Positions 671-13,894 of a stretch of 64,000 nucleotides of DNA are shown one piece after another. Location: the NCBI RefSeq assembly GCF_004345025.1, contig NZ_CP037745.1, positions 1,984,001 through 2,048,000 on the forward strand. Direction: 5' to 3'. The translations under genes were made by a program, and so were the position numbers. Origin of the DNA: Rheinheimera sp. D18 (GTDB lineage Bacteria > Pseudomonadota > Gammaproteobacteria > Enterobacterales > Alteromonadaceae). The notes under the pieces are model-generated. The model did no database searches. It was given only the letters and a program-made list of their open reading frames with translations, and was not told the DNA's origin. Each line of letters opens with the position of its first letter. Within the stretch, counting starts at the first letter, position 1.

Positions 671-1201
671 TTATAGTGGTGCCCGTGGTGCTAAACTTTG
701 ATCTGCCGCAGCTGTAACTACTTCGCGTTGTTGTTGCACCAGCCAATTTAAACAAGCGGGTAATGGTTTTGGCAAACGCGCAATACCAATGCTATCTAGC
801 AAGTTTTTGCAATACAAACCCAACTCGGTGTCACCTAGCATTAATAAGCGGCGGCGAAAAAACAGCGTATCAGGGTCAACGCTATTGTTAATCATTGCCA
901 AGAAATCTGCCGAGCTAGCACGTATTAGCAAATCTTGCTGCGGGCTTTGCATATCAACCTTAAGCTGCTTGCCTTGTAACTGTATGGCAAAGCTTAACTG
1001 ATAGTCGCTTACCTCGATTACTACCGTTTTACCGGTTAAAAATGCCAGCTCGCCGGTTTTACATTCTGGGCGAAAAAAGCTGTTCAGCGCCAAGGATAAC
1101 AGGCTGGCTTGCAGCGGTTTGGGTGCATAGCGGTTAAGTTGTTGCATCAAAGTGGGTATACCCGCTACCAAATTATGGTTAACTCTTTTTATATCAATCA
1201 T
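671..1201 (-). CDS. ubiT: Anaerobic ubiquinone biosynthesis accessory factor UbiT (SCP2 domain)
   Basis: This 176-residue protein matches the UbiT/YhbT family, with an SCP2-type lipid-binding domain over about residues 45-140 (TGELAFLTGKTVVIEVSD, then PDTLFFRRRLLMLGDTELG). UbiT is thought to bind prenylated quinone intermediates and works with UbiU and UbiV in oxygen-independent ubiquinone synthesis. It is divergent from ubiU-ubiV, 106 bp away, and upstream of hemN on its own strand. The start ATG is at 1199-1201. The divergent gap has AT-rich -10-like stretches but no convincing FNR box. Confidence 0.93.
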   Translation of the reverse strand: MIDIKRVNHNLVAGIPTLMQQLNRYAPKPLQASLLSLALNSFFRPECKTGELAFLTGKTVVIEVSDYQLSFAIQLQGKQLKVDMQSPQQDLLIRASSADFLAMINNSVDPDTLFFRRRLLMLGDTELGLYCKNLLDSIGIARLPKPLPACLNWLVQQQREVVTAAADQSLAPRAPL

Positions 1202-1307: not shown

Positions 1308-2300
1308 ATGGAACTGTTATGTCCGGCCGGAAGCATGCCAGCCTTAATCGCCGCAATTGAAAACGGTGCCGACGCGGTGTATGTGGGTTTAAAAGACGAT
1401 ACTAATGCTCGCCATTTTGCCGGCTTAAATTTTGATCAAGGCAAATTAGAACAGGCGGTGCGTTATGTGCACCAGCATGGCAAAAAAATACATGTCGCTA
1501 TTAATACTTTTGCCCACCCCGATAACTGGCAGCGCTGGCAACATGCGGTAGATAGCGCGGTTGCCGCCGGTGTTGACGTGCTTATTATTGCCGACATGGC
1601 CGTATTGGCCTACGCCGCCGAACGATACCCTTATGTAGAACGGCATTTATCGGTGCAAGCGTCGGCCACCAATGCCGCTGCTATTGAGTTTTATCGCCAG
1701 TTTGGCGTTAGCCGCGTGGTGCTACCGCGGGTGTTATCGTTACAACAAGTGCGCGCTTTGGCCCGTAGCTGCGATGTCGATTTAGAAGTATTTGCCTTTG
1801 GTAGCTTATGCATTATGGCCGAAGGCCGTTGTTATTTAAGCTCGTATATGACCGGTGAATCACCCAATACTGCGGGTGCCTGTTCGCCCGCTGCTTTTGT
1901 GCGCTGGGACGAGCAAGATGGCCATTTAGAGTCACGTTTAAACGGCATTTTAATTGACCGTTTTGCGCCATATGAAACTGCAGGTTACCCTACGTTGTGC
2001 AAAGGCCGTTTTACGGTCGGCGAAGACACCTATCACGCGCTGGAAGAACCTACCAGCTTGAATACCCTAGATATTTTGCCGCAATTACACGCCGAGGGCA
2101 TTAAGTCGTTAAAAATAGAAGGCCGGCAGCGCAGCCCGGCTTATGTCGCGCAAATTACTCAAGTATGGCGCGCCGCCATTGATGCGGTAATGAAAGATCC
2201 TGAGCATTTCGCGGTGCAAAACCATTGGCAGCAAACCTTAGCCGGTTTATCTGAAGGCAGCCAAACTACCCTTGGCGCTTATCATCGAAAATGGAAATAA
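1308..2300 (+). CDS. ubiU: O2-independent ubiquinone hydroxylation protein UbiU (U32 family)
   Basis: This is a 330-residue U32-family protein beginning MELLCPAGS. Four cysteines at residues 168, 175, 192 and 231 match the spacing of the four that hold the [4Fe-4S] cluster in E. coli UbiU. UbiU and UbiV form a complex that hydroxylates ubiquinone precursors without O2, using prephenate as oxygen donor in E. coli (established for the family). A Shine-Dalgarno-like AGGA precedes the ATG. The stop codon lies 4 bp before ubiV, so the two are almost certainly co-translated; mogA follows in the same run. Confidence 0.96.
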   Translation: MELLCPAGSMPALIAAIENGADAVYVGLKDDTNARHFAGLNFDQGKLEQAVRYVHQHGKKIHVAINTFAHPDNWQRWQHAVDSAVAAGVDVLIIADMAVLAYAAERYPYVERHLSVQASATNAAAIEFYRQFGVSRVVLPRVLSLQQVRALARSCDVDLEVFAFGSLCIMAEGRCYLSSYMTGESPNTAGACSPAAFVRWDEQDGHLESRLNGILIDRFAPYETAGYPTLCKGRFTVGEDTYHALEEPTSLNTLDILPQLHAEGIKSLKIEGRQRSPAYVAQITQVWRAAIDAVMKDPEHFAVQNHWQQTLAGLSEGSQTTLGAYHRKWK

Positions 2301-2304
2301 CGCT

Positions 2305-3177
2305 ATGAAATTCTCATTAGGGCCGGTGCAATATTTTTGGCCTAAAGCGCAAATGCAGCAATTTTATCAAGATGCCGCCGATAGCAGTGTAGATATTGTT
2401 TACCTAGGCGAAACCGTATGCAGCAAACGGCGTGAATTAAAATTTGAAGACTATATGGCCATAGGCCATATGTTACGTGACGCTGGCAAGCAAGTGTGCT
2501 TATCGTCGATGACCTTGTACGAAGCACCGAATGAGCTGCGCGAGCTGCGTAAATATATCGACAATGGTGAGTTTTCAGTTGAAGCCAATGACGTTGGCGC
2601 AATTGCTATGTTGCAAGAAAAAGCCTTGCCGTTTGTCGCAGGTGCGGCCATTAACTGTTATAACCAGCATAGCCTGCGCCGCTTAGTTGGCATGGGCTTA
2701 ACCCGCTGGGTAATGCCGGTAGAGTTATCGCAACATTGGTTAGATACGCTATTAAGCCAAAGTGTTATTCAAGATATTCGCGATTGCTTTGAAACCGAAG
2801 TATTGGCCTTTGGCCATTTGCCGTTAGCATGGAGCGGCCGTTGCTTTACTGCACGTTCAGAAAACCGCGCCAAAGATCAATGTGAGCTGTGCTGCATTAA
2901 ATACCCACAAGGGCGCGAAGTGGCTAGCCAAGATGGGACCTCGGTATTTGTGTTAAACGGCATTCAAACCCAGTCTGGTTACTGTTATAACCTTATAAAC
3001 CAATTACCTACTATGCAGGGCATGGTAGATGTAGTACGGTTAAGCCCACAAGTAACAGGCACCTTTGCTTGGTTAGAGAAATTTAAAGCCAATCTTAACG
3101 GTAACGCCCCCCAAGCACTTTCAAAAACCGATAGCAATGGCTATTGGCTTAGCTTAGCCGGCATGGCCAGTGGTTAA
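2305..3177 (+). CDS. ubiV: O2-independent ubiquinone hydroxylation protein UbiV (U32 family)
   Basis: Starting at ATG 2305 (MKFSLGPVQYFWP), the protein has 290 residues. An upstream in-frame start at 2272 would overlap ubiU and is not needed. Cysteines at residues 39, 180, 193 and 197 fall exactly on the E. coli UbiV [4Fe-4S] ligand positions; C196 is an extra neighbour. It is the partner of UbiU in anaerobic ubiquinone hydroxylation. GGAAA lies just upstream of the ATG, overlapping the end of ubiU. The gene is followed 15 bp later by mogA, so ubiU-ubiV-mogA appears to be one transcription unit. Confidence 0.96.
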   Translation: MKFSLGPVQYFWPKAQMQQFYQDAADSSVDIVYLGETVCSKRRELKFEDYMAIGHMLRDAGKQVCLSSMTLYEAPNELRELRKYIDNGEFSVEANDVGAIAMLQEKALPFVAGAAINCYNQHSLRRLVGMGLTRWVMPVELSQHWLDTLLSQSVIQDIRDCFETEVLAFGHLPLAWSGRCFTARSENRAKDQCELCCIKYPQGREVASQDGTSVFVLNGIQTQSGYCYNLINQLPTMQGMVDVVRLSPQVTGTFAWLEKFKANLNGNAPQALSKTDSNGYWLSLAGMASG

Positions 3178-3764: not shown

Positions 3765-5495
3765 TTAACGGCGAATTAAAAATAGCCATACCAATAACAG
3801 CAAGGTTACAAACCAAAAGCCTGATAATAGTTGCCAAAACAATAGCGGGTTAGCTTTGCGTTCTTGCTTTACCTCTTCGTGCAAAAATGCGGGGTTTGGC
3901 TGCTGCAAGTCACGCAGTAAGCTAGTAATACTTTGATAGCGTTCAGCGAGATCTAGGCTTACACCTTTTTGTAACGCACGGTCAAACCAGGTTGGTATAA
4001 CGGGGTTAAATTGGCTAGCACTTAGGTAGCGTAATTTGTCGTAATCGCGTGCAGTGCGACACTGCTCTACCTTATCGCCATAGGGTAAATATCCACCGCT
4101 AAATAGCTCATAGGTAATGGTGGCTAAAGCGTAAATATCGCCCTGAACACCCGAGTTGTGGCCTAATAAATAATGTGGATCAGAATATACCGCTGTGCCT
4201 AAGGCAGCGTCTTGCTGCAGTGGGCTGTATATTTCGGCTAGCCCCGCCACATATACCGAGCCAAAATCGACAATTTTTAAACTGCCATCGGCTAGATAAA
4301 TAATATTACCCGGTTTTAAATCTTGATGTACCGCGCCCATCCGATGAAAAGCTTTTAAGCCTTCGGCTATCTGTTTTACCAGCTTTATTGCCTGTGACGG
4401 TTTTAACGGTTTGGCTTGCAACTCTAGCCACTGCTCAAGATCTTGGCCGTTTAAATGCTCCATTAAATAATATAAAAACGTGCGTGGCCGACATTGGCGA
4501 ATAACCTTAACCACGTATGGGCTTTGAATGCGCAGGCCAATCCATTCTTCGCGAATAAAACGGTCAATATATAAGGCATCATCGTCGTAGTTTATCGACG
4601 GGCATTTCAGCACGTACTCTTTGCCATCAAGTTCATCTGCAACCAAATACAAATGGCTGCGGCTACTGGCAAATAAGGTTTTTATTACTTTATAGCCATC
4701 CAGTTTCATGCCAGGGTTTAATGCTGGAGGAAAGGGTAAACGGGTTAGGGTTTGGTTTAAATCATCAAAGCTTTGTTCGGGTATGGCTTCTACGTTTATC
4801 ACTATGGCACTTAAGTTATCATCGCTGCGATTTGTTTTAGCCAAGGCGAGCAAGCTATCGCAGCACTGCTTGGCATCACTAATTTGCGATAATTGCTGCT
4901 GTAAAACACTATCGTTAATAAAGTCGCTGATACCGTCAGAGCATAGTAAAAACCGATCGCCGGCTTGAATGCTAATGCTGCCCTGCTGCGCTTTTACTTG
5001 CGCATCCATACCTAGCGCGCGGCCTAAAAACTGGCGCTGTTCAGACAATACCGTGGTGTGATCTTCTGATAACTGCTTTAAAACGCCAGTACGCCAATGG
5101 TATAGCCGACTGTCGCCGATATGAAAAAAGTGCGCGGTTTGTGATTTCAACACTAGCGCAGTAAAGGTAGTAAGAAAGCCTTTTTGTTGCTGACTAAAAC
5201 TATGACTTAGCTCGTATAATTCATTATTAATGGTCGCCAGTAGCTGCTCGGCACTGTAAGTTACCGACCAGCTATCAGGCGTTTGCATATACTCTTGGCA
5301 AAAACGCTGCACTGCCGTTTTACTGGCTTGTTGCCCCGCCTCTGCAGTACTAACCCCGTCGGCGACCACAAAACAGGCGCCCTTAAAGGTAAGCAAGTGG
5401 GTATCGTCAGGCACATTACAGGCAACCGCATCTTCATTTATCGGCTTGATACCTGCGTTAGTGCCGCTGGCTAGGCTTAGTTTAAGCTGTTGCAT
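3765..5495 (-). CDS. Fused PP2C phosphatase / Ser-Thr kinase, C-terminally membrane-anchored
   Basis: About 576 residues from ATG at 5493-5495, which has AAAGGTG upstream; a GTG two codons earlier is also in frame. Residues about 8-240 form a PP2C phosphatase (INEDA, FVVADGVS, GDSRLY, LLCSDGISD, DDNLSAIVI). Residues about 265-530 form a protein kinase with a Lys in YVLKCPS, HQDLKPGNII in the catalytic loop and DFGSVYVAG at the DFG motif. The last 25 residues are hydrophobic (FWFVTLLLLVWLFLIRR), so the protein is probably tail-anchored with both domains in the cytoplasm. It follows narK by 48 bp on the same strand. A role in controlling nitrate/nitrite uptake or assimilation is inferred from that linkage alone. 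Confidence 0.93.
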   Translation of the reverse strand: MQQLKLSLASGTNAGIKPINEDAVACNVPDDTHLLTFKGACFVVADGVSTAEAGQQASKTAVQRFCQEYMQTPDSWSVTYSAEQLLATINNELYELSHSFSQQQKGFLTTFTALVLKSQTAHFFHIGDSRLYHWRTGVLKQLSEDHTTVLSEQRQFLGRALGMDAQVKAQQGSISIQAGDRFLLCSDGISDFINDSVLQQQLSQISDAKQCCDSLLALAKTNRSDDNLSAIVINVEAIPEQSFDDLNQTLTRLPFPPALNPGMKLDGYKVIKTLFASSRSHLYLVADELDGKEYVLKCPSINYDDDALYIDRFIREEWIGLRIQSPYVVKVIRQCRPRTFLYYLMEHLNGQDLEQWLELQAKPLKPSQAIKLVKQIAEGLKAFHRMGAVHQDLKPGNIIYLADGSLKIVDFGSVYVAGLAEIYSPLQQDAALGTAVYSDPHYLLGHNSGVQGDIYALATITYELFSGGYLPYGDKVEQCRTARDYDKLRYLSASQFNPVIPTWFDRALQKGVSLDLAERYQSITSLLRDLQQPNPAFLHEEVKQERKANPLLFWQLLSGFWFVTLLLLVWLFLIRR

Positions 5496-5543
5496 ACCCA
5501 CCTTTATTGTTGCTGTTAAAACGGTTATTTATTCCACACTGAT

Positions 5544-7037
5544 TTAGCCTACACTAATACGGTGCACTGTGCCGTCTTCACCAACTTCAGTAATATGACC
5601 TTTGGGGTCGTCTAAAAACATTACCGCAAATAGCCCTACCAGTGCTGAAGCTGCAATAACATAGAAAAAGTTACTGTAGCTCACGTAACTTAACACCGTT
5701 AAATAAATTACCGCACCAACGTTACCATAAGCACCGGCCATACCAGCAATTTGGCCGGTCATGCTGCGTTTAATCAGTGGCACTATAGCAAATACCGCGC
5801 CTTCACCGGCTTGCACAAAGAAGCTACAAGCCATAGTGGCAAATACCGCTAGTGGGATCCACCAATGGCTGTCCATTAAACCCATTACAAAATAGCCCGA
5901 TGCCAAACCAGCAATTAAAATTAACATACTTTTGCGGCGGCCAAATTTGTCAGAAAACCAGCCGCCCATCGGCCGTGAGACTAAATTCATAAAGGCAAAG
6001 CCTGATGCCAACAAACCCGCTTCAATTGCGGTTAAGCCTTCAAAAGTTTCTAAGAAATACAGCGGTAACATTGACACTACCGCTAGCTCAGAGCCAAAGG
6101 TAGCAAAATAGGCCACGTTAAGTATGGCGACCTGTTTAAAGCTGTATTTATCGGCCTCGGGTACGCCAGCACGCAAATTCTCGGCGTTAATACGCCATGC
6201 TTGTTGCGTTTGTACCAGTAACAAAAAGGCTAACACCGCCCATAATGCATACATCATATTAGTGGAAAATAAATTTACGCCGGCTGGTGATAAGCGCCAT
6301 GCCAACATACCCAGTGCCAAGTGCATAGGAATATTCATTAGCATAAGCAAATACAGATCGCGCCAGCTGGTTACCACCATAGCGCCAGTTTTTTTCGGTT
6401 TAAAATACACCGAGCCTTTTGGCGTATTGCGGGCAAAATAGTAGAAAACTAAGGCGTAAACGGCACTGATCACACCAACAGACGCAATAGCATAGCGCCA
6501 GCCATCGGCACCACCAAAGGTTAGCGCTAATGCAGGTAGTGTCATCGCAGCAGCGGCCGAACCAAAGTTACCCCAGCCACCATAGATACCTTCCGCCGTA
6601 CCTACTTGATGATGCGGAAACCACTCGCCCACTAAGCGAATGCCGATAACAAAACCTGCACCGACAAAGCCAAGTAAAAAACGGAACATCGCAAGTGCTG
6701 TATAAGTTTGCGCAAAGGCAAAACCAATACACAGCAGCGCTGAAATAAACAGCACTACGGTATAAATAATACGCGGACCGTAACGGTCAACCAGCATACC
6801 CACCACAATACGCGCCGGAATGGTCATCGCTACGTTTAAAATAAGTAAGGCTTTAATTTGCGCATCGGTTAAGGCTAGCGCTTCTTTAATATGAATAAGT
6901 AAAGGCGCATGGGCAAACCAGATAACAAAGGTTAAAAAGAATGCAAACCAAGTAAGGTGTAACATTTTGATTTTTTGCTCGGCAAAGTTCAGCAGCTTTA
7001 TGCCACCGTTATCTTGCCCAGAAGCTGCAGTGCCCAT
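5544..7037 (-). CDS. narK: NarK-family nitrate/nitrite transporter (MFS)
   Basis: This 497-residue multi-spanning membrane protein belongs to the nitrate/nitrite porter branch of the [22 protein letters not shown] followed by [13 protein letters not shown], the nitrate-signature helix, and [15 protein letters not shown] in the second half. It should exchange nitrate and nitrite across the inner membrane. The ATG at 7035-7037 has a strong GGAGGATATT ribosome-binding site. A near-consensus FNR box lies about 71 bp upstream with a suitably spaced -10, so anaerobic activation is likely. The PP2C-kinase gene follows. Whether this copy is a proton symporter or antiporter cannot be read from sequence. 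Confidence 0.95.
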
Positions 7038-7337
7038 AATATCCTCCTACGGATACCTAAATAAACTTTAGCAAGTGTAAAGACTAAATAAGCCGAAATC
7101 ATTGATGCAAAACAAAGCCACAACATCACTTTTATTAATAAAAATAGGCAGATACCACTAATTTGGTAAGCAATAACCTAACGTACAGCCACAGTTAATC
7201 GCCAGCCGCTACCCACAAAGTGATAGTTAAAAACACTGACGTTTAGTAAATTGCGCGTTAGAGGTACACCCTTAGAAGCTGCTGCGCTACTGCGTTTAGG
7301 CGTTAGAATAAAACCACTTACACTGTAGGAGCCAACT
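7038..7337. promoter_or_regulatory. Divergent narK / narK2 intergenic region (300 bp)
   Basis: No gene is seen here. The region separates two divergent NarK-family genes. It holds one FNR-type box (separate entry) that serves the leftward narK. For the rightward copy only the TAGGAG ribosome-binding site at about 7324-7330 is clear. I found no second FNR box and no convincing paired NarL heptamers. Confidence 0.6.
7074..7115 (-). promoter_or_regulatory. FNR/Anr-type promoter for narK
   Basis: TTGAT-GCAA-AACAA at 7102-7115 matches nine of ten positions of the FNR consensus TTGAT-N4-ATCAA. Reading leftwards, TACACT (7074-7079) is centred 32 bp from the centre of the box, the spacing of class II FNR-activated promoters (box at -41.5). 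The predicted start is near 7067, leaving a leader of about 30 nt before the narK ATG. Confidence 0.65.
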
Positions 7338-8654
7338 ATGCTTCTTTCTGCACCGGCCAATACTCTGCCCCAAGCCACGCTTAACGGTGCGCGGCGTGCA
7401 TTGCTTATGGCAACTTTGGCGTTTGCAGCCTGCTTTTCGGTTTGGACGTTATACGCAGTAATGGGCTTAACACTGCGTCAGCAATTGGCACTATCGGCAA
7501 CGGAGTACGGCATTTTATTAGCCACACCGATATTAAGTGGCGCGCTGTTTCGCATTCCGCTGGGGCTAATGGCCGACCGCTACCGCGCACGAAACTTATG
7601 GGGCTATTTAATGCTCGCCGTATTACCGGCTTTAGCATTGCTGCCACAAATTAGCAGTTACAGCGGCTATTTATGCTTGGGTTTATGGTTTGGTATTAGC
7701 GGCGGCGCGTTTACGCTGGGTATACGCTATGTCTCAGACTGGTTTAGTTCAGACCGGCAAGGCTTAGCACTGGGGTTATTTGGTGTGGGTAATGCCGGTG
7801 TAGCACTTACCTTTATTTTAGTTCCATTAATACAACATTATGCTGGCTGGAACTGGATTGGCCCCATATACGCAGCAGGTTTAGCTTTTATTGCACTACT
7901 GTTTTTCGTACTAGCGCCAACCTTACCCCTAGCCTATCGCGCCACAACCGCACAGCCTAACGCTTCGGCATTAAACTTAAAGCAATTAGTTAGCGATGCT
8001 AGAATTTGGCGTTTTGGCCTGTATTATTACTTTGTATTTGGTAGTTTTTTAGCCCTACTGTTGTGGCTACCGCAGTATTATATGCAGGCGTATCAAATGA
8101 CTGAGCCGCAAGCAATGGCATTTACGCTGTTTTTTGTTGCTACCTCCAGTATGATACGCGCACTGGGTGGCTGGTTTGCCGATCGCTACGGTGGCCGTGC
8201 GGTAAACTGGGGCGTATTCTGGGTATGCATTGTCTGTTTGTTTTTCTTGAGTTATCCCCCCACTACTTTAGTGATCCACGGTGTAGAAAAGGACGTGCAA
8301 CTCGAAATTTCCATGAATGTCTGGTGGTTTACGCTACTTATTTTTATTATTGGCGTAGCCCAAGGGCTGGGCCGAGCTAGTGTGTATAAAGTACTGCACG
8401 ATTATTATCCGCGCCATATGGGCGCTGCTGGCGGCTTTGTCGGTGCCATTGGTGCACTAGGTGGCTGCACGCTGCCAATATTATTTGGTATGGCACAAGA
8501 TATTCTCGGTATTGTTACCGGCTGCTTTATGATTTTGTATGGCGTGTTAGCGCTGTGCATGATTACCATGTTTTTTGCTAATCAGGCTGCGCGCTATCAA
8601 TATAAGCTACACCGCGCTCGCGAACATAATTTTTTACTGGACGAGGATGACTAA
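7338..8654 (+). CDS. Second NarK-family nitrate/nitrite MFS transporter
   Basis: This 438-residue, roughly 12-helix MFS protein has the NNP-family features GALFRIPLGLMADRYRAR (loop 2-3), FTLGIRYVSDWFSSDRQGLA and GLFGVGNAGVALT (nitrate-signature helix). It is more distant from the neighbouring narK than a recent duplicate would be. TAGGAG sits 8 bp before the ATG. The stop TAA overlaps the nnrS ATG as TAATG, so transporter and nnrS are translationally coupled. It is likely a nitrate/nitrite carrier used together with NO-tolerance functions. Confidence 0.92.
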   Translation: MLLSAPANTLPQATLNGARRALLMATLAFAACFSVWTLYAVMGLTLRQQLALSATEYGILLATPILSGALFRIPLGLMADRYRARNLWGYLMLAVLPALALLPQISSYSGYLCLGLWFGISGGAFTLGIRYVSDWFSSDRQGLALGLFGVGNAGVALTFILVPLIQHYAGWNWIGPIYAAGLAFIALLFFVLAPTLPLAYRATTAQPNASALNLKQLVSDARIWRFGLYYYFVFGSFLALLLWLPQYYMQAYQMTEPQAMAFTLFFVATSSMIRALGGWFADRYGGRAVNWGVFWVCIVCLFFLSYPPTTLVIHGVEKDVQLEISMNVWWFTLLIFIIGVAQGLGRASVYKVLHDYYPRHMGAAGGFVGAIGALGGCTLPILFGMAQDILGIVTGCFMILYGVLALCMITMFFANQAARYQYKLHRAREHNFLLDEDD

Positions 8655-9856
8655 TGCAAATCACCGATCTCGCCACTGAGCAAAAGCTAACACCGCTGCT
8701 GCGTCAGGCGTTTAGACCCATGTTTTTATTTGGCGCAGCTTTTAGCGCCATTGCTATATTACTTTGGGTATTAGCGCTCACTGGCAATATTCAGTTAACG
8801 CCATTTCGTGACGTAATGTTTTGGCATAGCCATGAAATGATCTTTGGCTTTGTTAGCGCCATCATCGTAGGCTTTTTACTTACAGCGGTGCAAAACTGGA
8901 GTGGCCTGCGCGCCACTCACGGTAAAACACTCTTCGTTATTGTTGCACTGTGGTTTAGCGCTAGGTTGTTGCTGTTATTTGGCGCCGGCTTACCACTATG
9001 GTTAGTGGCTGGCGTTGACCTACTATTTTTACCGTTATCCGCCGTTTTACTCGCGATACCGCTAGTTAAAACTGGGCAAAAACGTAACCTGTTTTTTATA
9101 CCGGTATTATTACTAATCACCGCATGTAACGCGTTAATGTATATCGGCGTGGCGTACAACCGTTATGACATTCAGCAACTGGGCAGCCAAAACGCGGTGT
9201 GGTTAATTACCTTGTTAATGGCAATTGTCGGTGGCCGTGTGCTGCCAATGTTTACCGCTAATGGCACACAAACGAAAAAAGCGAAAGCCATAATTTGGGT
9301 AGACCGCATTGCACTAACTTCGTTATGGCTTATTTTTGCGCTGCACTTTTTAAACATAGCGACACGCTTACCTAGTTTGGCAATCAGTATCTTGTTTGCT
9401 ATTAGTGCCATTTTTACTGCGATACGCTGTTTTCGCTGGAAATTTTGGCTCACCGTTAAGGTGCCATTACTATGGTCGTTACATATTGCCTATTGGTGTA
9501 TTCCGATTGGCTTAGCCTTATACAGCGCACGTTATGCTGGTGTTAATATTAGCAATAGCATAGCGCTACACACACTGACTGCCGGCGCTATGGGTTCAAT
9601 GATTCTGTCGATGATGGCGCGGGTATCATTAGGCCACAGTGGCCGAGTATTAAAACCTAAAGCTATTATGTCGCTGGCGTTTATCTTAGTTATTATTGCC
9701 GCCATTAGCCGCACCGTGCTGATTGGCTTTTGGCCAGAGCAAACCATGCAATGGTTATGGTTAGCGGCTATTGGCTGGGTAACCGCCTATACCTTGTATG
9801 TGATAGTGTATTTTCCAGTGCTGACGACACCAAGACCCGATGGTCGTCCGGGTTAA
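8654..9856 (+). CDS. nnrS: NnrS family haem-copper membrane protein
   Basis: A 400-residue protein with about 12 hydrophobic segments and the NnrS hallmarks: LLRQAFRPMFLFGAAF at the start, FWHSHEMIFGFVSAIIVGFLL, IVGGRVLPMFTANG, and the late HTLTAGAMGSMILSMMARVSLGHSGR (quoted here in part). NnrS proteins protect against nitrosative stress, probably by countering NO effects on iron pools; the biochemical activity is not settled. The ATG overlaps the stop of the upstream transporter by one base, and a terminator follows directly. Confidence 0.93.
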   Translation: MQITDLATEQKLTPLLRQAFRPMFLFGAAFSAIAILLWVLALTGNIQLTPFRDVMFWHSHEMIFGFVSAIIVGFLLTAVQNWSGLRATHGKTLFVIVALWFSARLLLLFGAGLPLWLVAGVDLLFLPLSAVLLAIPLVKTGQKRNLFFIPVLLLITACNALMYIGVAYNRYDIQQLGSQNAVWLITLLMAIVGGRVLPMFTANGTQTKKAKAIIWVDRIALTSLWLIFALHFLNIATRLPSLAISILFAISAIFTAIRCFRWKFWLTVKVPLLWSLHIAYWCIPIGLALYSARYAGVNISNSIALHTLTAGAMGSMILSMMARVSLGHSGRVLKPKAIMSLAFILVIIAAISRTVLIGFWPEQTMQWLWLAAIGWVTAYTLYVIVYFPVLTTPRPDGRPG

Positions 9857-9871
9857 GCCGACAAGACAAAA

Positions 9872-9914
9872 CGCAGTAGCTTACCTATGAAGAGGTAAAC
9901 ACTACTGCGCTTTG
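9872..9914 (+). terminator. Rho-independent terminator after nnrS
   Basis: Outer arms CGCAGTAG (9872-9879) and CTACTGCG (9902-9909) and inner arms TTACC (9881-9885) and GGTAA (9894-9898) form a long hairpin followed by CTTTGATTT. It overlaps the start of the FNR box of the next gene. Confidence 0.7.
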
Positions 9915-9952
9915 ATTTATATCAAGCCGCTAGCCTGTAGCGGCTTTACACT
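9912..9952 (+). promoter_or_regulatory. Perfect FNR box and -10 for the DGC-domain gene
   Basis: TTGAT-TTAT-ATCAA at 9912-9925 is a full 10/10 match to the FNR/Anr consensus and a perfect dyad. TACACT at 9947-9952 is centred 31 bp downstream of the box centre, the same hexamer and nearly the same spacing as at narK. The predicted transcription start is near 9959, ahead of both possible start codons. Confidence 0.8.
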
Positions 9953-9984
9953 GAAATTCATCGTTATATTGCATGGAATTCAGT

Positions 9985-10368
9985 ATGAACACCGAACAGC
10001 ACCACAAACCCTTGGTTTATTCATGCTCAGGTTGCTCTAATGTAGCGCAGCTAGCTAATGATCTTGCCGTAGTACTAGACCGTGAAGGCTCAGCCGAGAT
10101 GTCTTGCATTGCGGGTATCGGCGGTAACGTTAAACAACTGGTTAAGTTGGCGAAATCTGGGCGGCCGATTCTAGCCGTGGATGGTTGTGCTTTAAACTGC
10201 GTTAAAAAAACACTCGCAACAATAGATGTAGTGCCAACCTGGCATCTTGAATTAACGTCGTTAGGGTATAAAAAACGCGAGCGTGAAGACTGCGGTTTAG
10301 CCGAAACCTATGCGCTAATGAAAATGGTACACCAAGATATTCTAGCGCCGATGGCGAACCCTAATTAA
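9985..10368 (+). CDS. DGC-domain putative zinc-binding protein
   Basis: About 127 residues from ATG 9985, which has GGAA six bases upstream; an in-frame ATG at 9973 has no such site. The protein starts with YSCSGCSNVAQLAND, has SCIAGIGGN in the middle and DGCALNCVKK around residues 62-71, the signature of the DGC family (Pfam putative zinc-binding). It has no signal peptide or membrane segment and is probably cytoplasmic. Function is unknown. The clustered cysteines suggest a metal or cluster site. A perfect FNR box and its place between nnrS and moeB link it to anaerobic nitrogen-oxide metabolism. Its stop overlaps the convergent moeB stop (shared TTAA). Confidence 0.85.
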   Translation: MNTEQHHKPLVYSCSGCSNVAQLANDLAVVLDREGSAEMSCIAGIGGNVKQLVKLAKSGRPILAVDGCALNCVKKTLATIDVVPTWHLELTSLGYKKREREDCGLAETYALMKMVHQDILAPMANPN

Positions 10369-11120
10369 ACCTGAGCACACACACTGCAAGCAGGATCTTT
10401 AGCTAAATTGAATTGCCGCCACTGGCTGTGCATGGCATCGAACAGTTGTAGCTTGCCAAACAACGGGCTACCTAGTTTTGCCAGTATTTTTACGGCTTCA
10501 AGCGCTTGCATAGTGCCAACTATGCCTACGACGGGGCTTAAAATTCCGGCTTCCATACAACTCAGTTGCTGTTCACCAAATAACTGACTTAAACAGTGAT
10601 AACAGGCTTGTTCGCCATTCATGCTAAAGCTAGCAACTTGGCCTTCCAGACGAATGGCTGCGCCTGATACCAGCGGTACTTTAGCGACCACACAGGCCGC
10701 ATTAATGGCATTGCGGGTGGCTAAATTGTCGCTGCAATCTAATACCAAAGAAAACTGCGGTATTAGCGTTAACAAGTCCTCTGCCGTTAGGCGTTTATTG
10801 ATTGCTGTTAATGTAATGCCACTGTTCAATGTGGTTAAACGTTGTCGCGCTTGCTCAACTTTTGCCAAACCAATATCGGTTTCACTATATAAAATTTGCC
10901 GCTGCAAGTTTGAGCTATCAATATTGTCATCATCAACCAGTGTAATATTGCCGACACCCGACGCCACCAAATAGGGGGCTGCGGCACAGCCCAAGCCGCC
11001 CATGCCGATAACAAGCACCTTGCTGGCTAATAGTGCTTCTTGGCCGTGAAAATCTAGCGCCGGCAGCATCAGTTGTCGGCTGTAACGCATCGCCTGCGCA
11101 GGGGTTAAAATATCAGTCAT
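10365..11120 (-). CDS. moeB: Molybdopterin-synthase adenylyltransferase (MoeB/ThiF family)
   Basis: This 251-residue ThiF/MoeB-type E1-like enzyme has the nucleotide-binding VLVIGMGGLGCAAAPYL near residues 35-51, DDDNIDSSNLQRQILY, LDCSDNLATRN, a Cys in SCMEAGILSPVVG, and CxxC pairs CYHC and CSVC for structural zinc. MoeB adenylates the C-terminal Gly-Gly of MoaD in Mo-cofactor synthesis. A ThiF role cannot be excluded, but the mogA and narK context favours MoeB. It is last in the norR-DUF454-moeB run and overlaps the preceding gene by 8 bp. Confidence 0.88.
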   Translation of the reverse strand: MTDILTPAQAMRYSRQLMLPALDFHGQEALLASKVLVIGMGGLGCAAAPYLVASGVGNITLVDDDNIDSSNLQRQILYSETDIGLAKVEQARQRLTTLNSGITLTAINKRLTAEDLLTLIPQFSLVLDCSDNLATRNAINAACVVAKVPLVSGAAIRLEGQVASFSMNGEQACYHCLSQLFGEQQLSCMEAGILSPVVGIVGTMQALEAVKILAKLGSPLFGKLQLFDAMHSQWRQFNLAKDPACSVCAQV

Positions 11121-11499
11121 GGTTTTGCTCTATCTGTTCGGGTCGGCACCATAGCCATACTGCTACGGCAAGTAAAAATAACGGCAATGCCAGCTTCATG
11201 CCCCAAGGCGCGGCCGAAAACTGGAGCATTATGGCACTTAATGCCATCATTATGCTGGCCAGATATTTAGCGCGCCGCGACACGATACCGTGCGCTCGCC
11301 ATTGTTGTATTGGTGGGCCAAGTGTGGGATGAGCTAATAGCTTTTGCTCTAATGCTGGCCAGCCTTTGCCGGCGGCCCAAGCACTTAATAATACAAAAGG
11401 TACCGTGGGCAAACCCGGTAAAGGTATACCAATTAACCCCAGTATTAGGCTAACAATAGCCAGTGTGCGCCATGCTAACACTCGTGTAAACTGCCACAT
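11113..11499 (-). CDS. DUF454 (YbaN-like) inner-membrane protein
   Basis: A 128-residue protein with the DUF454 pattern: a first helix over about residues 10-40 containing LGLIGIPLPGLPTVPFVLL, then KGWPALEQKLLAHPTLGPPIQQW and two further hydrophobic segments near residues 83-118. Function is unknown; YbaN is the E. coli relative. Its ATG overlaps the norR stop (TAATG on the minus strand) and its end overlaps moeB, so it is translationally coupled on both sides. Confidence 0.85.
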   Translation of the reverse strand: MWQFTRVLAWRTLAIVSLILGLIGIPLPGLPTVPFVLLSAWAAGKGWPALEQKLLAHPTLGPPIQQWRAHGIVSRRAKYLASIMMALSAIMLQFSAAPWGMKLALPLFLLAVAVWLWCRPEQIEQNHD

Positions 11500-13028
11500 T
11501 ATTTTAAACCCAGCCGCTGTGCTAATTTATGCAGGTTACTGGGATCTAACTCTAGCTGTCGTGCGGCTTGCGACCAACTCCCGCTATGTTGTTGCAACGC
11601 GGCTTCTATCATTTGTCGTTGTAGCTGGCTTACTGCTAACTTAAGTGGAATAGCTAGGTTGTTGCTAGGTATTAAATTTTGCGCACTATGCTGCACCGCT
11701 GCTGTTACGCTATCAATATCAAGAAGTTCCGCACCTAGAGTAACAATGTCGGTGCGCGCCACGCCTTGGCTTAAAGCTTTTATCGCCGCGCGGCTAATAA
11801 CATGCTCTAGCTCTCGCACATTACCCGGCCAATCGTAACTGAGTAACGCCAGTTCAGCTTCTGGCGACAAACGCAGCGCTCTTAAGCCTAAGCGTCCACG
11901 GTTTTGCTCAAGAAAATGCCCAGCTAATAGCGGAATATCGTCTCGCCGTTCCCGCAGAGGTGGAATAGGCAGCGGATATACCGACAAACGGTGATACAAG
12001 TCAGCACGAAACTCACCCTGCTTTACTTGCTGCTTTAAATCACGGTTAGTGGCCGCAACTAAACGCACGTTTACTTGGCGTGGTTTATCAGAGCCTAAGC
12101 GTTGTATTTCACCGTTTTGTAGTACTCGCAGTAATTTAGCCTGCACGCCAAGTGGCAACTCACCCACTTCATCTAAAAATAAGGTGCCGCCATCTGCGGC
12201 TTCAAACCGACCAGCGCGTTCAGTATGGGCACCAGAAAATGCGCCCTTGTTATGACCAAATAATTCACTTTCAGCCAAGCTTTCTGGCAAAGCAGCGCAG
12301 TTAATGTAAATAAGTGGTTTACCCGAGCGTGACGAACTGCGATGTAAATGCCGAGCAAACAGTTCTTTACCTACACCCGTTTCACCCAGCAACAACACCG
12401 GCAAATCGGAGGTGGCTACCACGGTTAACTCTTGCAGAATTTGCTGTAATACTTTGCTTTGTCCTATTAGCTCATAACGCTGTTGTGCTGCAGGCTCAAA
12501 TTGCTGGCTACCATTTTGATGGTTTAACCTAAGCGCACGATTGGCCTGCTCTAGCTCAGTAATGCGCACCGCCGCTTCGACAAATAAGCTAAAACGTTGT
12601 AATTCGAATAGGGTGGCTTGAGAAAAGCTACCGGCTTGTAACGCGTCTAAAGTTAATACACCCCAGCAACGGCCTTCTATGTATAACGAAATGCCCATGC
12701 AATCATGCACCGGCAAGGCGTGGCCTGGCTTTTCTGCCAGCAAGCCATCGTACGGATCCGGCAATTCAGAGTCAGGTTCAAACCGCACCGGATTGCGACT
12801 GGCTAATATTGCCGCCAACCTTGGGTGTTCAGCCACCGTAAAACGTCGGCCCAACGCATCACGCACTAAACCATACATAGCCACTGGCTTTAACACATCA
12901 TGTTCTAGCTTTAATAAGCCAACCGCACCGCACGTAAAATGGTTGCATAGCGTGGTTACCAAACGCTGCAACCTAACTGCTGCTGGTAAATCAGTTACCA
13001 AATCAACAACTAAAATTTCTTCCAGCAT
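11499..13028 (-). CDS. norR: NO-responsive sigma-54 activator NorR
   Basis: About 509 residues from ATG 13028 with AAAGG upstream; a longer frame to 13112 would run through the regulatory region. Residues 1-165 are a GAF domain resembling E. coli NorR (LVRDALGRRFT, LPDPYDGL, VHDC). The AAA+ domain (about 185-420) has GETGVGKE (Walker A), GTLFLDEVGE (Walker B) and GAFSGA at 262-267 where NorR normally has GAFTGA. The C-terminal Fis-type helix-turn-helix ends ARQLELDPSNLHKLAQRLGLK-like sequence. NorR senses NO at a non-haem iron and activates sigma-54 promoters. It is divergent from ric and heads the norR-DUF454-moeB run. No norVW genes are in the window. Confidence 0.93.
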   Translation of the reverse strand: MLEEILVVDLVTDLPAAVRLQRLVTTLCNHFTCGAVGLLKLEHDVLKPVAMYGLVRDALGRRFTVAEHPRLAAILASRNPVRFEPDSELPDPYDGLLAEKPGHALPVHDCMGISLYIEGRCWGVLTLDALQAGSFSQATLFELQRFSLFVEAAVRITELEQANRALRLNHQNGSQQFEPAAQQRYELIGQSKVLQQILQELTVVATSDLPVLLLGETGVGKELFARHLHRSSSRSGKPLIYINCAALPESLAESELFGHNKGAFSGAHTERAGRFEAADGGTLFLDEVGELPLGVQAKLLRVLQNGEIQRLGSDKPRQVNVRLVAATNRDLKQQVKQGEFRADLYHRLSVYPLPIPPLRERRDDIPLLAGHFLEQNRGRLGLRALRLSPEAELALLSYDWPGNVRELEHVISRAAIKALSQGVARTDIVTLGAELLDIDSVTAAVQHSAQNLIPSNNLAIPLKLAVSQLQRQMIEAALQQHSGSWSQAARQLELDPSNLHKLAQRLGLK

Positions 13029-13044
13029 GGTAGTTTTTACCTTT

Positions 13045-13082
13045 GGGTAAATTAAACCCGAAATTGAGTGGGTGTAATGTAC
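13045..13082. promoter_or_regulatory. Two candidate NorR binding sites
   Basis: GGGT-N7-ACCC at 13045-13059 and GT-GTAATGT-AC at 13072-13082 both fit the NorR core GT-N7-AC. They lie about 70-100 bp upstream of the predicted start from the sigma-54 promoter, as expected for enhancer sites, and overlap the norR leader, so autoregulation is possible. The first also overlaps the dyad TTACC-TTTG-GGTAA (13037-13050). Confidence 0.5.
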
Positions 13083-13124
13083 CATGACACATAATAAAGC
13101 TATATAAATCAAAGGTGGTAGTTT

Positions 13125-13140
13125 TGGCCTGACTCTTGCT
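13125..13140 (+). promoter_or_regulatory. Sigma-54 promoter of ric
   Basis: TGGCCTGACTCTTGCT has the invariant GG and GC separated by 10 bases (-24/-12 elements) and TTGCT matching the -12 consensus. The expected start near 13151 leaves a leader of about 48 nt before the ric ATG. A NorR gene is directly divergent. Confidence 0.75.
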
Positions 13141-13198
13141 CTTTAACTGTAGTCGCGTGCAGGACGCGGAATATTTCGTTAAGTATGCAGGAGTTAGT

Positions 13199-13894
13199 AT
13201 GCAATTATTAGATCAGTCTTTAGGCCAAATTGCCACATCAGTAGCCGGTGCCACAGCGGTATTTCATCAGCATAAATTAGATTTTTGTTGTGGTGGCCAG
13301 CACAGCTTACGCGACGCATTAGCGAAAAAAGGCCTGCCAGAACAGGACATCGTTAATGCGTTAACCGCATTAACGTTACAGCCAGTTCAGTTTACCGATT
13401 GGCGCAAAGCACCAACTAAAGAGCTAATCACGCATATTTTAGAACGTTTTCATCAACGTCATCGTTTACAGTTACCAGAGCTTAGCCGCTTAGCGCGTAG
13501 GGTTGAGCATGTGCACGGTGATGATCCAAGCTGCCCTACCGGTTTAACGGATCACCTTGATGATATGTATCAAGAATTAGAAAGCCATATGATGAAAGAA
13601 GAACAAATTTTGTTTCCAATGCTAGCTGGCGGTATTTATCCTGCTGGCCCGATAAGCGTAATGGAAGAAGAACATATACAGCACGGTGATGCGTTAGAAA
13701 AACTTGAGCTATTAACTAACAACATTACGCTGCCAGCACACGCATGTAATACTTGGACGGCGTTATACATTGGTTTAAAAGAGCTTAAAGAAGATTTAAT
13801 GCAGCACATTTTATTAGAAAACGAAATTTTGTTTGTGCAACCTAAAGCCAAAGCGCACGGCGAAGGTGGTGTGTGCTGCGGTGGTTGTCAGTAG
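13199..13894 (+). CDS. ric: Iron-sulfur cluster repair di-iron protein (RIC/YtfE/ScdA/DnrN)
   Basis: About 231 residues from ATG 13199, which has AGGAG seven bases upstream; an upstream in-frame start at 13136 would overlap the sigma-54 promoter. The N-terminal ScdA-type domain carries FHQHKLDFCCGG. The hemerythrin-like part has histidines in ILERFHQRHR, EHVHGDD, ESHMMKEEQILFP, EEEHIQHGDAL and HILLENEILF for a di-iron site. RIC proteins restore Fe-S clusters damaged by NO. The tail ends GGVCCGGCQ, a short Cys-rich extension. The promoter context points to NorR control. Confidence 0.93.
   Translation: MQLLDQSLGQIATSVAGATAVFHQHKLDFCCGGQHSLRDALAKKGLPEQDIVNALTALTLQPVQFTDWRKAPTKELITHILERFHQRHRLQLPELSRLARRVEHVHGDDPSCPTGLTDHLDDMYQELESHMMKEEQILFPMLAGGIYPAGPISVMEEEHIQHGDALEKLELLTNNITLPAHACNTWTALYIGLKELKEDLMQHILLENEILFVQPKAKAHGEGGVCCGGCQ

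Follow-up and report, generated by a model that had tools for sequence, protein, structure and literature searches.

An AnvM-type gene of the DGC-domain family (PF08859) lies in the window, by which the whole 64,000-nt stretch of Rheinheimera sp. D18 DNA is meant, behind what appears to be a class II FNR promoter of its own, upstream of which stands a NarL/NarP site. Its product may be an accessory protein that protects against reactive nitrogen or oxygen species during nitrate reduction, a reading to which we give a probability of about 0.5. Control of the gene by FNR and NarL, judged from the conservation of its promoter, is likely, and its distribution among genomes of the host family argues strongly for a link to dissimilatory nitrate reduction.

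Genomic context of the DGC gene

The source genome is a single contig of 3.3 Mb. The gene order in the window is ubiT, ubiU, ubiV, a moaB-like gene, a phosphatase-kinase fusion, narK, narK2, nnrS, DGC, moeB, DUF454, norR and ytfE (Table 1); for ubiV, the moaB-like gene and the fusion, the names rest on position and sequence and not on family profiles. The placement of a DGC-domain gene between nnrS and moeB, proposed in an earlier sequence-only reading, is confirmed: the open reading frame ending at 10368 matches PF08859 with 115.2 bits against a cut-off of 27, over 105 of 106 profile positions. Its preferred start, which agrees with those of close relatives, is listed in Table 1; an alternative in-frame ATG lies at 9973. 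PF08859 is the sole Pfam match at E ≤ 0.001 and a GGDEF domain is absent; despite the common abbreviation, the product is not a diguanylate cyclase. The PF08859 family bears the label 'putative zinc-binding protein'.

Table 1. Features in and around the DGC locus, in window coordinates
Feature	Position	Strand	Remarks
ubiT	671-1201	-	UbiT NF047962 above cut-off
ubiU + ubiV, O2-independent ubiquinone synthesis	1308-3177	+	UbiU NF047963 above cut-off; ubiV by position only
narK, nitrate/nitrite transporter 1	5544-7037	-	TIGR00886, 321 bits, above cut-off
narK-like nitrate/nitrite transporter 2	7338-8654	+	TIGR00886, 182 bits, under cut-off of 312
nnrS, next gene 5' of DGC	8654-9856	+	PF05940, 368 bits
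NarL/NarP 7-2-7 site TACCTAT-GA-AGAGGTA	9882-9897	+	centre 9889.5; exact consensus match
FNR box TTGATTTATATCAA	9912-9925	+	centre 9918.5; zero mismatches
-10 hexamer TACACT, then G	9947-9952	+	21 nt after FNR box
DGC-domain (PF08859) gene, AnvM homologue	9985-10368	+	ATG start; 127 aa; Cys14, Cys17, Cys41, Cys68, Cys72 conserved
moeB-type adenylyltransferase, convergent to DGC	10365-11120	-	NF004281 above cut-off
norR, NO-responsive sigma-54 activator	11499-13112	-	NF003451, 724 bits
ytfE/RIC di-iron repair protein	13136-13894	+	NF008221 above cut-off

The fusion, in our reading a PP2C phosphatase joined to a Ser/Thr kinase (3765-5501, minus strand, between moaB and narK), is retained in the blocks of 10 of 11 relatives, the exception (L057) being a short contig; a bifunctional kinase/phosphatase also lies near a DGC gene on a Shewanella plasmid (L115). 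In the gap between the two narK genes (7102-7168) there is an FNR box with one mismatch (7102), and inspection by eye suggests a weak sequence of 7-2-7 type (7153-7168); one-mismatch sites of both motifs, FNR and 7-2-7, are present near narK in L050 and L054. From these sites, the narK transporters may share FNR/NarL control with the DGC gene.

Elsewhere the source genome contains narG, one FNR, NarL (324 bits, above a cut-off of 250) and a NarX/NarQ-type sensor scoring 431 bits as NarQ and 430 as NarX, both under the cut-offs of 553 and 578. It also has a NirK-like gene (197 bits, under the cut-off of 296) and a putative qNor, a name of our own for a protein with no NCBIfam match at 1e-20. 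The notion of a shared denitrification island was rejected: in the fetched stretches of the 11 other genomes with the same block (A-type, below), relatives of the NirK-like gene were found in none and of the putative qNor in four, and a search of six loci for such relatives gave no match.

Promoter architecture

The sequence-only reading had described a 10/10 FNR dyad followed by a TACACT -10 element at class II spacing. Both are present, the dyad being an exact match, and counting from the position of the -10 hexamer places the box centre at about -41, as expected of a class II site. FNR boxes with at most one mismatch number nine in the window against 1.73 expected, and 11 exact boxes occur in the 3.3-Mb genome against three for a reversed control pattern. 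By our reading of the flanking open reading frames five of these 11 are intergenic: four precede DGC, narG, a gene pair for anaerobic ribonucleotide reductase and a TlpA/ResA-like gene, and the fifth stands a long way 5' of a Zur/Fur-like gene. The remainder lie inside genes. A consensus scan of 9700-10500 found no intrinsic terminator between nnrS and DGC; the same scan also passed over the TACACT promoter, since it required a -35 element. An inverted repeat, CCGCTA-N5-TAGCGG (9927-9943), was dropped as an extra site, as it is not kept in 12 aligned promoters.

The NarL/NarP site is new relative to the sequence-only reading. It matches exactly the consensus TACYYMT-N2-AKRRGTA, with its centre placed 29 bp 5' of the FNR centre, hence at about -70 if the latter is at about -41. 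By chance the window should hold 0.38 matches with no more than one mismatch, and taken alone the site is weak evidence. The E. coli nirB promoter carries FNR near -41.5 and NarL/NarP near -69.5. The order of sites is thus the same and their centres are 29 bp apart here against 28 there, although the nirB-type promoter drives a gene other than DGC. Activation of nirBDC by FNR, NarXL and NarQP is described in the accessible text of PMC8139620.

Conservation of the promoter within the family

In a sample of 147 family genomes drawn from a larger group, a DGC gene scored above cut-off in 31, giving 32 genes since G003 carries two. One further genome, G027, was excluded as DGC-positive: it has napA, and at G027:C1:997239-997370 a DGC remnant of 23.7 bits, under the cut-off and with two in-frame stops. 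G117 was likewise excluded as NnrS-positive, being under cut-off. Twelve DGC loci, the window included, lie downstream of nnrS within 0.9 kb and in the same block (A-type); in these, norR is present in 11, ytfE in all 12, and narK is also conserved. Nineteen lie in other, varied neighbourhoods (B-type), which include mfd-like or cobalamin genes as read from flanking open reading frames, and the second gene of G003 (L048) was kept separate.

Of the 32 family DGC genes, 29 have a perfect FNR box upstream, namely 12/12 A-type and 17/19 B-type; the other two B-type genes have one mismatch and L048 has two. Most boxes begin 70-83 nt 5' of the start codon, and those of L049, L064, L073, L074 and L075 lie farther away. 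Among the 31 promoters with at most one mismatch, 30 have a -10 element (TA...T) exactly 21 nt downstream of the box, L059 being the exception. As a control, a perfect box was found within 200 bp upstream of 2 of 156 other genes in the A-type loci and 6 of 294 in the others, and the six appear to be divergently oriented genes next to DGC that share its box; allowing one mismatch raises the counts to 14/156 and 24/294. The claim of a dedicated anaerobic promoter is thereby strongly supported, as far as conservation across the family can indicate.

The NarL site is confined to the A-type group, where it is counted as present in 11 of 12 DGC promoters. It stands 29 bp from the FNR centre with 0-2 mismatches in 10/12; L051 has it at 32 bp, and L052 has a degenerate form with four mismatches. 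In 36 other loci examined the best 7-2-7 match has at least three mismatches. A composite of NarL site, 14 nt and FNR box (at most two mismatches) occurs in 15 of the 147 genomes, once in each, and 10 of these 15 sites are DGC promoters; in the source genome the DGC promoter is the sole instance, and the reversed control pattern gave one match in the same 147-genome scan. Other genes too can have a 7-2-7 site (no more than one mismatch) in the 200 bp before them, as do 11 of 156 in A-type loci and 0 of 294 in the other group, so that in A-type loci DGC is not alone in having the NarL site.

The presence of the site follows the regulator and the reductase. Above cut-off, narG is found in 12/12 A-type and 1/19 B-type genomes, narL likewise in 12/12 and 1/19, and napA in 0/12 and 19/19. 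G079, alone among B-type genomes in having narG and narL, has a DGC gene (L063) lacking the NarL site, its best match having four mismatches. A tree of the A- and B-type rows alone splits the two groups on one branch (support 100/97). In the tree of all 52 rows, 11 of 12 A-type sequences group together (95/88) and L052, the A-type locus with the degenerate NarL site, is placed on the B side (91/92).

Association with nitrate reductases

For this comparison narG, nirS, napA and narL were counted only above cut-off, and 43 further genomes with weaker narG-profile matches were left out. All 31 DGC genomes contain narG or napA, against 47 of 116 genomes without DGC (p 1.3e-10); at genus level the figures are 15/15 and 17/37 (p 1.4e-4), both tests ignoring phylogeny. 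Among the 46 napA genomes, nirS (PF02239) is present in 14/19 with DGC and 5/27 without (p 2.7e-4, again ignoring phylogeny); the other 5 of the 19 have no nirS match, and nirS was found in no A-type genome. These associations bear out the earlier suggestion of a link to nitrogen-oxide metabolism. Of 78 genomes with narG or napA, 47 have no DGC gene, some of them within the same genera, which makes the gene dispensable and not essential.

The sequence-only reading had also raised the question whether DGC co-occurs with nnrS. Twelve loci are linked to nnrS. Among the 78 Nar/Nap genomes, NnrS is present in 31/31 with DGC and 46/47 without, so that NnrS adds nothing and was rejected as a specific partner.

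DGC genes outside the family

At class level a DGC match was found in 15 of 369 genomes, our own included. Sixteen places lay outside our own genome, and their regions were fetched except for that of G156. Searched by tblastn with the window protein, 12 of the 14 fetched class-level regions contained DGC, and the following covers these 12, leaving out L110 and L111. Genes ubiUVT lie nearby in L098, L104 and L107, and norR-ytfE in L098, among the 12 loci read. L102 has the order narH, narJ, narI, PPIase, moaB, moeA, DGC, moaA. A COX1-family gene is near DGC in L100, and in L099 and L105 the neighbours are instead a TPP enzyme or CCG/Fe-S proteins. Some of the class-level genes may lie inside operons. 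At L101 two DGC genes stand in tandem (L101:8782-9243 and L101:9622-10857), the second within a longer open frame.

Another search gave five further loci. Among these five, ubiUVT is accompanied by an nnrS-like gene in L031 and L033, while NnrS and MoaA are found in L034. Named records agree with this picture in part: in Cupriavidus necator pHG1 (L113) the gene is found with nosZ and ubiTUV, and in Ideonella (L117) with nnrS, hemerythrin, ubiUVT, ytfE and norR. The DGC protein and the 170 upstream bases shown are identical in L034, a Methylotenera MAG, and L035, from Pelomonas, which suggests a mis-binned contig.

In other records DGC follows narXL on a P. aeruginosa plasmid, is accompanied by a kinase/phosphatase and an MFS transporter in Shewanella aestuarii, and is without nitrogen-oxide-type neighbours on a Klebsiella plasmid and a haloarchaeal plasmid. 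Plasmids of Klebsiella, Raoultella and Enterobacter carry DGC genes (matches H1-H13, H17 and H25-H29); in L114, a Klebsiella plasmid typed as conjugative, the gene is near IS and restriction-modification genes, and the divergent group H25-H29 matches residues 29-112 only.

The FNR box is perfect in one of the 12 class-level loci (L101, at -107) and has one mismatch at -74/-76 in L098 and L108. In L103 and L107 one-mismatch boxes lie beyond -200, and the other class-level loci have more mismatches; L031 and L033 each have a one-mismatch box near -118. From the class-level counts, the box is not general outside the family.

The protein and its homologue AnvM

The window protein contains the cysteines of the CxxC, MSC and DGCxxxC motifs. 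Across 21 aligned sequences there is no variation at Cys14, Cys41, Cys68 or Cys72, and 20 of them have Cys17; in a wider set of 44, Cys14 and Cys68 are present in all and Cys17, Cys41 and Cys72 in 43. In an AlphaFold2 model from 15 sequences (pLDDT 90, pTM 0.84), Cys14/17, Cys41 and Cys68/72 are each predicted to come after a strand or strand-like stretch (residues 10-13, 38-39 and 62-66). Were these strands parallel, as in a Rossmann-like fold, the loops would share one edge, making a single five-cysteine site likely, and the model suggests that the five cysteines probably form one metal or redox-thiol site. The protein covers nearly the full PF08859 domain. No sequence relative was found in the PDB at E ≤ 1, no fold match at E ≤ 0.001, and no distant Pfam relative near a cut-off. 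ArsH and flavodoxin, the best fold matches, were set aside as guides (E about 0.06, TM-scores ≤ 0.43).

The homologue in P. aeruginosa is AnvM (PA3880), with 69.5% identity over 95 aa and 54% over the multi-sequence alignment. It has the same five cysteines and a DGC domain of 114.7 bits, its gene lies beside narXL/narK/narG, and an FNR-like box, TTGATTCCGGTCAA, with one mismatch is found at -71 from the start. It differs in having no NarL 7-2-7 site within 400 bp upstream (the best has five mismatches) and in that publications treat it chiefly as a regulator of virulence that works together with MvfR and Anr.

In open-licence literature one functional study of the DGC/AnvM family was found (PMC6650552). 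Its accessible text describes induction of AnvM by anaerobiosis and nitrate, a mainly cytoplasmic location, a hyper-reactive Cys44 and a 2-fold greater peroxide sensitivity of the anvM mutant; Cys41 of the window protein aligns with this Cys44. Interaction with Anr (by pulldown and two-hybrid) and MvfR is also reported in the accessible part of PMC6650552. An Anr motif is present in the anvM promoter, and that part gives a negative EMSA, in which the protein used is ambiguous in the text, and says the gene is not Anr-regulated (PMC6650552). By our count AnvM in record L112:7968-8363 has eight cysteines, against 11 stated in the accessible text of PMC6650552. The portion of PMC7035377 available lists PA3880 as of unknown function. 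The earlier statement that the family has no settled function thus overlooked a studied member, and holds in so far as the AnvM work leaves the biochemistry unsettled, the refolded protein having shown no significant Zn, Cu or Fe in the accessible text (PMC6650552).

Proposed role and alternatives

In the absence of O2, FNR would activate the DGC gene, and nitrate or nitrite, sensed by the NarX/NarQ-type sensor, would act through NarL to give higher expression. The product, a small and probably cytoplasmic alpha/beta domain, would deal with the reactive nitrogen or oxygen species that the cell produces or encounters in the course of dissimilatory nitrate reduction, not as part of nitrate reductase and presumably alongside NnrS, NorR and YtfE. 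We infer the binding of FNR and NarL at the promoter, the single cysteine site and the protective role from the promoters, genomes and model described above. The NO-stress genes nnrS, norR and ytfE share a conserved block with DGC; in the accessible text of PMC1274295, nnrS and dnrN (ytfE) belong to regulons such as NsrR, NorR, DNR and NnrR, and the word 'DGC' does not occur in its main text. A role in handling metal, sulfur or NO-damaged sites, as first suggested for the gene, is compatible with the data.

The protective role is favoured over two other functions, each of which we consider rather unlikely. The protein could be a maturation or repair factor for molybdenum-cofactor nitrate reductase, delivering Moco, sulfur or Fe-S to Nar or Nap; moeB and the moaB-like gene in the window cluster, the nar-moa-moe run around DGC in L102, moaA near DGC in L034 and the presence of Nar or Nap in every DGC genome would all suit such a factor. 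It would sit poorly with the 47 Nar/Nap genomes that lack DGC, and it would not predict the association of DGC with nirS among napA genomes.

Of about the same standing is the view that the protein, like AnvM, is a binding partner of FNR (in Pseudomonas, Anr) and tunes it when O2 is absent, giving feedback on the regulon. The reported AnvM-Anr interaction and the 34 Anr-regulated genes within the AnvM regulon (PMC6650552, accessible text) agree with this. Duplicated images in that work, including the Anr two-hybrid figure 2I, have since been replaced in a correction, the authors holding results and conclusions unchanged (PMC7554671). A general FNR partner, moreover, need not track nitrate reductases, yet in the Nar/Nap survey of the 147 family genomes DGC is found only with them.

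As to the promoter, the box could instead be a site for Dnr or Crp, with NO or cAMP and not O2 as the signal, which is very unlikely. Dnr and FNR have the core TTGAT-N4-ATCAA in common. The genome, however, yielded one PF00325 regulator, which scores as Fnr (372 bits against a cut-off of 228) and has cysteines 13, 16, 22 and 115; the cluster cysteines of E. coli FNR are 20, 23, 29 and 122, and by this spacing all four are present. The only other cNMP-domain match lies inside a 618-codon open frame, and Dnr and Crp were rejected as regulators since no second PF00325 protein was found. No CRP was found among the PF00325 proteins of this genome. That the box is a functionless chance match is scarcely credible: exact boxes do occur inside genes of this genome, and chance could account for the 7-2-7 site in the window when it is taken by itself, but the near-fixed position of the box before 29 of 32 genes, other neighbourhoods included, contradicts a chance origin.

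Implications

A domain family of open function becomes testable, in that regulation and distribution both point to nitrate respiration. This link offers conditions and partners for finding the function, and another frame for the AnvM results. It is conceivable, though we would sooner bet against it, that dissimilatory nitrate reduction has in the AnvM/DGC family a dedicated partner that has so far gone unrecognised, whose five cysteines form a site labile to NO or redox change on an alpha/beta fold lacking close solved relatives, and that the published virulence role is a downstream effect. The NarL site, present with Nar and NarL and missing where Nap replaces them, makes the DGC promoter a clear natural case of promoter rewiring.
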